From a virus: a stretch of DNA of 46,298 bases. Below the pieces are notes generated by a model that searched no databases, was not told where the DNA came from, and saw nothing but the letters and a program-made list of their open reading frames with translations. Each line of letters begins with the position of its first letter. Position 1 is the stretch's first letter. Where the stretch lies: IMG/VR virus record IMGVR_UViG_3300013104_000032, positions 1 through 46,298 of that record. One strand, 5' to 3'. Made by a program: the position numbers and the translations under genes. This document shows positions 76-35,917 of the stretch, in pieces.

Positions 76-123
76 TGGTGGGCGGTACAAGGATCGAACT
101 TGTGACCCCTACCATGTCAAGGT
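76..123 (-). other. 3' fragment of tRNA-Val(GAC): left prophage attachment site
   Basis: On the minus strand this reads as the 3' part of a tRNA: anticodon loop TTGACAT (anticodon GAC, valine), the 3' side of the anticodon stem, a T-arm ACAAG-TTCGATC-CTTGT, acceptor 3' strand ACCGCCC, discriminator A and an encoded CCA ending at 76. The match to a tRNA breaks at about 123: the 5' side of the anticodon stem reads GGTCG on the plus strand where GGTAG is needed, and no D-arm or 5' acceptor follows. Known tyrosine integrases use tRNA 3' ends as attB, leaving a fragment at one end and an intact gene at the other. I infer that 1-75 is host chromosome, 124 onward is prophage, and the intact tRNA plus integrase lie beyond the right end of the window. 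Confidence 0.8.
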
Positions 124-25873: not shown

Positions 25874-26175
25874 CGCACACCCCCGCGCTCGATGCGCAGC
25901 GCGTCAAGCGAGCCGGACGTCGGAACGGTCACTACGACATGGCTGTTCACCTCCACGCCGTTTCCAAACTTCAGCCCGTTGAACCAGCGCCGCAGCACGT
26001 ACTGCCGCACAAGGCTGATGCCGGTGAAGATCACGCCGATGCCGAACGCCTGGCCGCCGGTAACGTGGAACCCGAACAGCGGCAGGATCGCCATGTTCGC
26101 GCACCAGTTGATGCTGAAGCCCACGGCGATATTCGAAATTGCCTCGACAACCGAACCGATTTTAGTCTGAGACAT
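25870..26175 (-). CDS. small phage membrane protein (DUF7220-like)
   Basis: 101 residues from the ATG at 26175, preceded by GGAGAAGCTC. The N-terminal two-thirds has two membrane helices (AISNIAVGFSINWCANMAIL and FGIGVIFTGISLVRQYVL), then RRWFNGLK and a polar tail. This resembles DUF7220, a phage-associated membrane family of unknown role. Confidence 0.65.
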   Translation of the reverse strand: MSQTKIGSVVEAISNIAVGFSINWCANMAILPLFGFHVTGGQAFGIGVIFTGISLVRQYVLRRWFNGLKFGNGVEVNSHVVVTVPTSGSLDALRIERGGVR

Positions 26176-33790: not shown

Positions 33791-34068
33791 GCCGCCTCCC
33801 TCAGCGCAGCCTTGCGCGCGTCCAGTTCGGCGCACAGTTGCGCCATTAGGGCCTTCTCTTCGGCGCGGTGGGCGGCGCGCGTGGCGGCTCGGCCGCGATG
33901 CTCTTGCACGGGCGCGAGAAGTTCGGCCCAGGTCGTGGCACCTTGTTTCAGGCGCGCTTGAAACGTCGTGATGCCGCCCGCGAACCCTCGCCCTTTGGCG
34001 GTAGAAAAAAGAGCATGAAGCGTCGCGTAACGCTCCCCTTCGATCGCGATGCAGATAGGCGGCTTCAT
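33787..34068 (-). CDS. hypothetical helical protein
   Basis: 93 residues. It starts KPPICIAIEGERYATLHALF, with TTFQARLKQGATTWAELLAP in the middle and a long basic Ala-rich helix at the end. No recognised domain. Both ends overlap neighbours by four bases, in line with co-translation with the methyltransferase. Confidence 0.6.
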   Translation of the reverse strand: MKPPICIAIEGERYATLHALFSTAKGRGFAGGITTFQARLKQGATTWAELLAPVQEHRGRAATRAAHRAEEKALMAQLCAELDARKAALREAA

Positions 34069-34463
34069 GCCGCACTCCGCAAACCGTTGCGCGCAAGCTT
34101 GTTCTGGATGTCCTGCAGCGCCTTCACCGATGCGATGAACTCGCGCTGCAACTGCGCGGCTTCGTCCTCGGGCGCGATTGGCTGGGGCGGCGCATAGCCG
34201 GCGTCCTGCGCTTCGAACGCGGCCAGGATGTGGCAGCCAGCCGCGCGAGCGCGCCGACGAATGAAAGCCAACTGGTCGGGGTCGAGCCGGTCACGCTTCG
34301 ACGTGTTCAAGCAGTCGGCCAGCCACTTGCCCGCATCAACTGCAGACTTCTCGGGCTTCAGGTCGGCGCCCACTGCTTTCATGCCGCCGAGCGCGTTGAC
34401 GGTGGCGCGAATGGCTTCGTTCAAGTCGTCCACAAACATGGGAATCTGTGCCTCGTCCATCAT
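34065..34463 (-). CDS. possible CII-like regulatory protein
   Basis: 132 residues from the ATG at 34463, with AGGGGG upstream. The order DDLNEAIRATVNALGGMKAV, LKPEKSAVDAGKWLADCLNT and RRARAAGCHILAAFEAQDAG resembles phage CII-type regulators of the CP76 group, which have a helical DNA-binding core. It follows the Cro-like gene and a terminator, as cII does in lambda. The match is by memory of the pattern, so confidence is moderate. A frame extension to 34523 is less likely. Confidence 0.55.
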   Translation of the reverse strand: MMDEAQIPMFVDDLNEAIRATVNALGGMKAVGADLKPEKSAVDAGKWLADCLNTSKRDRLDPDQLAFIRRRARAAGCHILAAFEAQDAGYAPPQPIAPEDEAAQLQREFIASVKALQDIQNKLARNGLRSAA

Positions 34464-34570: not shown

Positions 34571-34807
34571 TCACGCCGCTTTCTTTTTCTCTGCCGCGAC
34601 GTCCCGCAGCGGACGCACCCACACGAGCACGCTGGCGTCGAGCGAGGGATCGGCTTCGGCCATGCGTTGCGCGAGCTTGTGACCGATGCCGCGCTGGCCG
34701 TTGTGGACCGCCGCGAGCGTTGGATAGGGCACGCCCAGGTGCTCGGCGACAGCCGCCAGCCCCCCGCGCTTTGCCACGTAGTTTTCGAAGTAGGTGCGCG
34801 GTTCCAT
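34571..34807 (-). CDS. Cro-like helix-turn-helix protein
   Basis: 78 residues. A YdaS/Cro-type helix-turn-helix is visible at about 13-40: KRGGLAAVAEHLGVPYPTLA then AVHNGQRGIG. It is the first gene of the leftward arm, next to two operator-like palindromes and the leftward promoter. It probably competes with the repressor at the same sites during lytic growth. Confidence 0.78.
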   Translation of the reverse strand: MEPRTYFENYVAKRGGLAAVAEHLGVPYPTLAAVHNGQRGIGHKLAQRMAEADPSLDASVLVWVRPLRDVAAEKKKAA

Positions 34808-34816
34808 GAATAGCCT

Positions 34817-34866
34817 ATGCGTTTCGCGTTATTCGGGAGTATGCGATTCGCGTAACACCAATGCAA
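34817..34866 (-). promoter_or_regulatory. leftward early promoter with two operator palindromes
   Basis: A -35 TTGCAT (34866-34861) and a -10 CATACT (34843-34838) are 17 bases apart on the minus strand. Operator-like 13-mers lie at 34841-34853 (ATGCGATTCGCGT), reaching the -10, and at 34817-34829 (ATGCGTTTCGCGT), 24 bases downstream. The transcript would begin just before the Cro-like gene. Confidence 0.7.
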
Positions 34867-34925
34867 GCCCGCGCCGTACGCTCCGGCCCACTTCCAAAGC
34901 AAGGCGCCACGCGGTGTCTCATCCT

Positions 34926-35261
34926 ATGAGCAAGTTCTCCGACAATCTCACGGCGCAGCGAGACAAGCTGGGAATGACAGTCCAGGACGCTACCGACGAG
35001 CTAAACCGCCGTGGCATAGCTGTTGCTTATTCGACGGTGGCCGGATGGTTCAACGGCAGTCGGGGGGAGAGGTGGAAAGTGGATGAGTTGATGGCGTTGA
35101 TGGACGTGCTGCAGACGAGCGTGCAGGCGATGCAAGGGGATGAGGTGGAATTGGTCGAGGATCCGGTGCCAGCGGCAACGGCTCGCGCGATGAAGAGCCT
35201 GACTGCGGAGCAGCAGCAGGCGATCTTGGCGATGGTCACTTCGATGGGGAACAAATCATGA
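34926..35261 (+). CDS. phage repressor, HTH-type, without peptidase domain
   Basis: 111 residues from the ATG at 34926. An XRE-type helix-turn-helix covers about 1-50 (LTAQRDKLGMTVQDATDELN then VAYSTVAGWFNGSR). The rest is a short helical dimerisation-like part ending with LTAEQQQAILAMVTSMGN. It is too short for the S24 LexA-like autoprotease of lambda CI, so induction by RecA cleavage is unlikely. The divergent position against the Cro-like gene identifies it as the lysogenic repressor. Its own promoter is not evident. Confidence 0.78.
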   Translation: MSKFSDNLTAQRDKLGMTVQDATDELNRRGIAVAYSTVAGWFNGSRGERWKVDELMALMDVLQTSVQAMQGDEVELVEDPVPAATARAMKSLTAEQQQAILAMVTSMGNKS

Positions 35262-35626
35262 AGAGCATATGGATGTTGGCAGCCCTACTGCCTGCGATAG
35301 CGTTCGGCCAGGAGGCGCCCGTCTGCCACTGTCAGGCGCAATGCGATGCGATGTGGGCGCAGGCCACAAAGGACGTGGAGAACGCCAGCGGCATGCGTTT
35401 GCGGATCGCCACGAATACGTTGCTTGAGACCTATGTCTCCAATCGCGCCGACCTGCAGACGGGCACGGTCACAAAGACGCCGTCCGCGGATGGCGGTTAC
35501 ACGATCGAGCTGACGCTTGAGCCGTGGTATCGCGGGCAGAAGGACGTGCAGGACGTCATCCGAACCAATGTGGCGCTATTCAACAAGCACATGGCAAAGG
35601 CTGGCGCGACCGTCACTTGCCCCTAA
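35258..35626 (+). CDS. exported protein coupled to the repressor
   Basis: 122 residues, start overlapping the repressor stop (ATGA). A signal peptide KSIWMLAALLPAIAFG probably ends near residue 17-18. The mature part starts QEAPVCHCQAQCDAMWAQAT, with a Cys trio suggesting disulfides, and continues with RLRIATNTLLETYVSN and EPWYRGQKDVQDVIRTNVAL. I recall similar periplasmic proteins beside phage repressors. Made from the repressor transcript, it would be expressed in the lysogen and could serve superinfection exclusion or another host benefit. That role is inferred. Confidence 0.72.
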   Translation: MKSIWMLAALLPAIAFGQEAPVCHCQAQCDAMWAQATKDVENASGMRLRIATNTLLETYVSNRADLQTGTVTKTPSADGGYTIELTLEPWYRGQKDVQDVIRTNVALFNKHMAKAGATVTCP

Positions 35627-35648
35627 AGGCGAGGCATCTGTGACCGAA

Positions 35649-35670
35649 GCCGCCGCAGGGCGGCTTTTTT
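35649..35670 (+). terminator. Rho-independent terminator of the repressor operon
   Basis: GCCGCC-GCAG-GGCGGC followed by TTTTTT, 23 bases after the exported-protein stop and before the rightward promoter. Confidence 0.88.
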
Positions 35671-35710
35671 GTGCCTGTAGCTCAGAAAGCTGAATATTTC
35701 CTAAACGGCT

Positions 35711-35782
35711 ACGCGCTCCGCATATCTTTTTCGCATCAACTACGCAAAATGCGTTGACACGGATTTACGCGAAGTGCATAGT
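35711..35782 (+). promoter_or_regulatory. rightward early promoter with three operator palindromes
   Basis: -35 TTGACA at 35754-35759, a 17-base spacer, -10 CATAGT at 35777-35782. Operators: ACGCGCTCCGCAT (35711-35723), ACGCAAAATGCGT (35742-35754, overlapping the -35) and ACGCGAAGTGCAT (35767-35779, overlapping the -10). With the left pair they give the consensus ACGCR-N3-YGCRT. Confidence 0.85.
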
Positions 35783-35824: not shown

Positions 35825-35917
35825 ATGGACAAGCGCAGCAAGGATCCGATGTTCACGCCGCAGGGCTTGGCGATGATCGCCGCTCTACTGGTCATGCTTG
35901 CTTGGGTGCTGGCATGA
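35825..35917 (+). CDS. 30-residue single-span membrane peptide
   Basis: First gene after the rightward promoter. GGGAG lies before the ATG and the TGA overlaps the next ATG. The peptide has a charged start (DKRSKDPMFTPQG) and one membrane helix (LAMIAALLVMLAWVLA). Function unknown; the ribosome site and coupling make translation likely. Confidence 0.55.
   Translation: MDKRSKDPMFTPQGLAMIAALLVMLAWVLA

Follow-up and report, generated by a model that had tools for sequence, protein, structure and literature searches.

How a lambda-like switch might be run by a short repressor is the question raised by this locus. In lambda, the repressor operon lies between two operator groups, the promoters of Cro and of the repressor share one of the two gaps, the recombination operon and the integrase gene lie beyond the other, and rex is the second gene of the repressor operon. 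The window analyzed here, a whole virus record of 46,298 bp with 61.7% G+C, has a small repressor gene between two gaps that contain copies of a repeated element. The following features are central to the locus:

34571..34807 (−), Cro-like protein, 78 residues, helix-turn-helix (HTH); its gene opens the leftward operon (replication, lysis, and structural genes)
34926..35261 (+), repressor, 111 residues; N-terminal XRE HTH at about residues 1–70, followed by two C-terminal helices; an S24 domain is absent
35258..35626 (+), second gene of the repressor operon, 122 residues, with an apparent signal peptide; phrog_16082, of unknown function, in the place of rex in lambda
35652..35670 (+), hairpin resembling an intrinsic terminator at the end of the repressor operon; the number of such hairpins found is not above the shuffle mean

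Our reading is that this is probably the lysis–lysogeny switch of a temperate siphophage, in which the 111-residue repressor and the Cro-like protein would act on five predicted operators.

The repeated element and its conservation

A sequence-only reading of the window had placed five copies of a 13-mer, ACGCR-N3-YGCRT (ACGCRNNNYGCRT), around the repressor, and our pattern scan found it at all five coordinates, namely at 34817 (−), 34841 (−), 35711 (+), 35742 (both strands), and 35767 (+). All five are inside the two intergenic gaps that flank the repressor operon, two in the left and three in the right gap, and the only other matches in the 46,298 bp, at 25892 and 30518, are both within predicted genes. 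The raw count of the 13-mer is unremarkable, with eight strand-matches versus 3.85 expected, a number that was reached in 9 of 100 shuffles, and it is the clustering rather than the total number that carries the weight. The pooled element is near-palindromic with the consensus ATGCG-NNN-CGCAT and holds about 15 bits by a simple count.

As the 13-mer had originally been picked by eye from the window, it was tested with sequences from other phages; about a dozen distinct relatives had been obtained by searching with the repressor and with the Cro-like protein. With an operator matrix trained on other phages, excluding the window and its two closest relatives, the five sites of the window rank 1, 2, 3, 4, and 8 among 46,286 positions. 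Eight positions reach or exceed the score of the lowest-ranking of the five sites, and five of these eight are in the two gaps, which make up 0.7% of the window. The binomial P for this clustering is about 8e-10; since the gaps were chosen where sites already lay, the relatives are the better test. Matrices from which the scanned phage was excluded gave site ranks, over the sequence at hand for each contig, of 1–5 in G001, of 1, 2, 3, 7, and 10 in G003, and of 1, 2, 3, 5, and 6 in G005. That the motif is a by-product of chance or base composition would agree with a whole-window count in the shuffle range, but the sites are clustered and are recovered independently by matrices from other phages; a chance origin is thereby already refuted by the relatives and retains practically no probability. 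These sequence comparisons show that all five repeats are genuine and have been conserved.

The left gap and the predicted repressor promoter

The left gap, between the divergent starts of the Cro-like gene and the repressor gene, contains the following predicted elements:

34817..34829 (−), left operator site 1, shortly downstream of where leftward transcription is predicted to start
34841..34853 (−), left operator site 2, overlapping the leftward −10; relative to the predicted repressor promoter, its centre is at −42
34838..34866 (−), predicted promoter of the Cro-like gene, a sequence match with −35 TTGCAT (34866–34861), a 17-bp spacer, and −10 CATACT (34843–34838)
34877..34882 (+), predicted −10 of the repressor promoter, TACGCT, with no −35; predicted start near 34889

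The overlap of an operator with the leftward −10, which the sequence-only reading had claimed, is found at the predicted promoter, as the 34841 site covers the CAT of CATACT. In the relatives, a TTGCA- or TTGCG-like −35 and a CATACT-like −10 with 17 bp between them occur at the same place, the −10 again being overlapped by the second site. Two left sites lie between the starts of the Cro-like gene and the repressor gene in all relatives except L014 and L015, a pair that comprises the most diverged relatives and has retained site-like sequences but not the shared geometry. The left sites are spaced by 24 bp in the relatives, with exceptions in L010 (25 bp) and L008 (35 bp).

On the repressor side, a TANNNT sequence follows left site 2 at a distance of exactly 23 bp in 12 of 13 loci and of 22 bp in the remaining one, L007, and at any other offset tested it occurs in at most two loci. 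The best −35 matches at this promoter reach only one to three of six positions (four of six in L007). The repressor promoter, therefore, has the look of a −10-only promoter, and relative to the expected start the operator would be centred at −42 (−41 in L007). This is the position from which lambda CI, bound to OR2, contacts RNA polymerase at PRM and activates this promoter, which likewise has a poor −35. Activation of its own promoter by the repressor fits this geometry and has moderate support from it; the conserved spacings are not independent events, as the relatives share ancestry.

No ribosome-binding site is evident in front of the repressor gene, and a GTCTCA sequence lies four bases before its start codon at 34916..34921 (+). 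Its spacing is the same in all relatives whose sequence includes the start region, with the variants GTCGCA and TTCTCA in two of them, and together with the start codon it forms a possible CTCA-N5-TGAG element (34916–34930).

The right gap and the predicted rightward early promoter

The right gap contains three sites and a second predicted early promoter, followed by a small open reading frame:

35711..35723 (+), right operator site 1, upstream and weaker than the other four sites
35742..35754 (+), right operator site 2, whose final base doubles as the first base of the −35
35767..35779 (+), right operator site 3, covering the CAT of the −10
35754..35782 (+), predicted rightward promoter TTGACA-17-CATAGT, a sequence match; similar hexamers and site overlap are found in most relatives
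35825..35917 (+), first rightward open reading frame, 30 residues, hydrophobic; 62% identical counterpart in G001

Both hexamers of this predicted promoter had been described as overlapped by the element, and this agrees with our analysis: the 35742 site extends to the first T of TTGACA (35754–35759), and the 35767 site covers the CAT of CATAGT (35777–35782). Wherever the region is readable in the relatives, two or three sites are found at the rightward promoter, about 0.5–3 kb from the left gap. The last two are 24–25 bp apart in all relatives except L008 and L014, in which the right sites are less regular; outside these two, the penultimate site is at or adjoins the −35, and the last site covers the start of the −10, which is CATAGT or CATAAT in most. 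Three right sites are present in the window, G001, L003, L028, L030, L012, L013, and L007, as well as in L011, where one is weak, and L010, where the first is weak. L033, L035, and L037 have two clear right sites only, and L041 has two plus a weak candidate. The claimed lambda-like left–right arrangement with the repressor in between thus appears well founded, as the same element is on both sides and recurs in distant relatives.

Genome layout

Leftward of the Cro-like gene follow a possible regulator and genes for primase, endolysin, terminase, portal, head, and tail functions, and the rightward genes include Sak4, SSB, Cas4 exonuclease, HNH, and helicase genes. The possible regulator occupies the place of cII:

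34065..34463 (−), second leftward gene, in cII's place; phrog_24214, of unknown function; a likeness to Phage_CP76 is seen by eye only

Its protein had no match in Pfam, the CII-like family PF06892 (Phage_CP76) included. In G003, the gene that directly follows the Cro-like gene has a weak PF06892 match (E 3.8e-5), which is below the cut-off. Several relatives carry regulator-like genes in this slot, some with an HTH (window 34065–34463, L027, L028, L032, and L040), and the slot appears modular, because different relatives hold unrelated genes there.

The gene order is that of lambda in mirror image. No integrase was found in the window, which appears to break there, and a tyrosine integrase is present in most relatives with long contigs. 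In G001, a stretch that matches the right end of the window lies about 1.6 kb before a tyrosine integrase. Window positions 76–123 resemble a tRNA gene at its 3′ end. L015 has a stretch with 92% identity to them directly beyond its integrase match (L015 9045–9092); this sequence is probably the attachment site. Based on the right-end match in G001 and the tRNA-like end beside the L015 integrase, the window is probably the genome of a temperate phage broken at the integrase. The 417-residue right-end gene was considered as the missing integrase, but this is not supported, as it had no Pfam match and its PHROG matches are all of unknown function.

The repressor and the Cro-like protein

In the AlphaFold2 model of the repressor (mean pLDDT 75.5), the XRE HTH comprises residues 1–70, and the two C-terminal helices are less certain. 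That it lacks a LexA-type domain, as stated in the sequence-only reading, is supported by the absence of Peptidase_S24 in the window and in eleven related virus records and by the shortness of the protein, which has only about 40 residues beyond the HTH domain. The data thus support a repressor that would be unable to cleave itself. The repressors of the aligned relatives are 46–88% identical to that of the window. A search of the repressor profile against PDB sequences gave a chance match only, and in the fold search many HTH structures matched about equally; since XRE structures tie in this way, no closer family is claimed. The 122-residue second gene of the operon is kept in the closest relatives only. 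In L010, the gene after the repressor appears to encode a different, membrane-type protein, as compared to the secreted-looking one of the window.

The Cro-like protein is conserved in all relatives found, had no match in phage records, and is modeled as a compact five-helix HTH (pLDDT 88), whose fold matches to XRE, HigA, Cro, and P22 c2 structures (VIA Z 5.8–6.9) are at the level of a common fold. When the profiles of the two proteins are compared, the alignment is confined to the recognition helix and the following NG-x-RG (45% identity over 20 columns, E 7e-6). This shared recognition-helix sequence is the strongest indication that both proteins read the same sites, which they probably do. 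As a point against the model given below, recognition helices differ from relative to relative in both proteins while the operator half-site hardly varies, so that either protein may fix the operator sequence. The two genomes with a CGAAT half-site, L007 and L011, depart from the rest in the residues that directly follow the NG, in the repressor as well as in the Cro-like protein; this was judged by eye, and two cases are too few for a covariation of half-site and recognition helix.

A model for the switch

In the model that we propose, the repressor would bind the five sites and shut both early promoters, and the Cro-like protein would compete for the same sites; both steps have good support. 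With moderate support, the repressor on left site 2, at −42 of a −10-only promoter, would activate its own synthesis in the manner of lambda CI on OR2, and the Cro-like protein at this site would switch the repressor promoter off.

Left site 2 could instead serve negative autoregulation of the repressor, with establishment by a CII-like activator elsewhere. A protein centred at −42 would cover the −35 region, and the regulator-like gene in cII's place, of several unrelated types among relatives, would suit such an arrangement, but the repressor promoter lacks a −35 that could be blocked, and the spacing of exactly 23 bp has been retained while much of the intervening sequence varies. We consider autoregulation unlikely, albeit a serious contender to self-activation. 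A reversal of roles, with the 78-residue protein as the lysogeny repressor and the 111-residue protein as Cro, is conceivable in that both are small HTH proteins with a common recognition helix. However, the 78-residue gene heads the operon toward the replication, lysis, and structural genes, and the 111-residue gene has the −10-only promoter and shares its operon with a moron-like, secreted-looking protein, which makes reversed roles very improbable.

Release of the repressor

Since a self-cleavage domain is missing from the repressor, it cannot be acted on by RecA in the way lambda CI is, and these phages are candidates for non-classic induction routes. The sequence-only reading had concluded that induction "must" follow a different route, for example by an antirepressor; the missing self-cleavage domain upholds its premise, but "must" should read "may", as no antirepressor was found. 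Searches for the ANT, Bro-N, and DinI families gave no match in the window or the relatives tested, and other families would escape such searches. An ImmA-type (M78) peptidase gene was likewise not found in the sequence at hand, and canonical patterns gave no LexA box in a crude scan, which might miss a differing LexA motif of the host. An unrecognised antirepressor, a host protease, or a hardly inducible phage are all possible in light of these results, and the family searches narrow the routes without deciding between them, because they miss unfamiliar antirepressors.

By precedent, an unrecognised antirepressor is the likeliest single route. The uncleavable repressors of the Gifsy phages are inactivated by small LexA-controlled antirepressors (PMC3121763), and coliphage 186, with CI and Tum, and N15, with AntC, are cited there as being induced via a LexA-controlled antirepressor and not by self-cleavage (cited in PMC3121763). 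A similar SOS-linked induction, by a LexA-controlled antirepressor outside Pfam, would be an addition to our model. Beyond the Gifsy precedent, it is favored by several small right-arm genes that belong to no family, and the empty family searches and the lack of a LexA box by crude patterns count against it; we regard it as possible, while leaning against it. Clearly less probable, and a speculation, is a lambda-like switch with operators on both sides and a self-activated repressor that has lost its link to RecA and responds, via a new kind of antirepressor or host factor, to some signal different from DNA damage.

Relation to known systems

The likeness to lambda comprises the shared operator sequence on both sides, the divergent Cro-like gene, the gene in rex's place, and the operator centred at −42 of a repressor promoter whose −35 is poor. 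The left gap, with the Cro-like and repressor promoters, would correspond to OR, and the right gap, which drives the recombination genes, to OL. In contrast to lambda, the orientation is mirrored, there are two instead of three sites on the Cro side, the site has 13 instead of 17 bp, and the repressor is half the size, lacks S24, and has no detectable sequence kinship beyond the HTH fold.

Repressors that are small and lack a self-cleavage domain are already a known kind in lambda-type switches, as in Gifsy, to whose repressors DicA (Qin) and RacR (Rac) are related (PMC3121763, PMC10432266). Gifsy GfoR and GtgR, DicA, and RacR resemble the present protein as short repressors without such a domain from lambdoid-type prophages (PMC3121763), but they have about 150 residues as compared to about 111 here, and the DinI–antirepressor operon of Gifsy was not seen here. 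Unlike in 186 and N15, no antirepressor has been identified in this phage, and N15 is a linear plasmid prophage. The HTH fold of the repressor resembles ImmR (Z 9.6 over 65 residues, rmsd 1.7) and CapH (Z 9.5 over 66, rmsd 2.0), scores at which many HTH proteins tie, but the M78 peptidase gene of the ImmR/ImmA and CapH/CapP systems is lacking in the window and relatives.

The region's DNA had no similarity to phage records and no match in Rfam. The set of repressor, Cro-like protein, and operator has no Pfam counterpart above the cut-off and almost none among 50,697 phage records, and a 369-genome sample of one class contained no repressor beyond the one already known in G010. The sole match in the phage collection is the repressor of Cylindrospermopsis phage Cr-LKS3 (31% identity over 93% of the protein), downstream of which a weak site-like sequence adjoins a TTGACA; this phage is too distant to tell whether the operator is common to both. 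Judged by these searches, the set and the conserved −42 geometry in it are new. They provide a testable switch map for an undescribed phage group, with exact predicted operators, two promoters to repress, and one that is predicted to be activated. That sequences unlike those of lambda share its −42 geometry points to a solution that either is very old or has arisen more than once. A repressor 62% identical to that of the window is encoded in L007, a metagenome-assembled genome titled Candidatus Eremiobacteraeota, and the placement in this distant phylum is likely due to misbinning.
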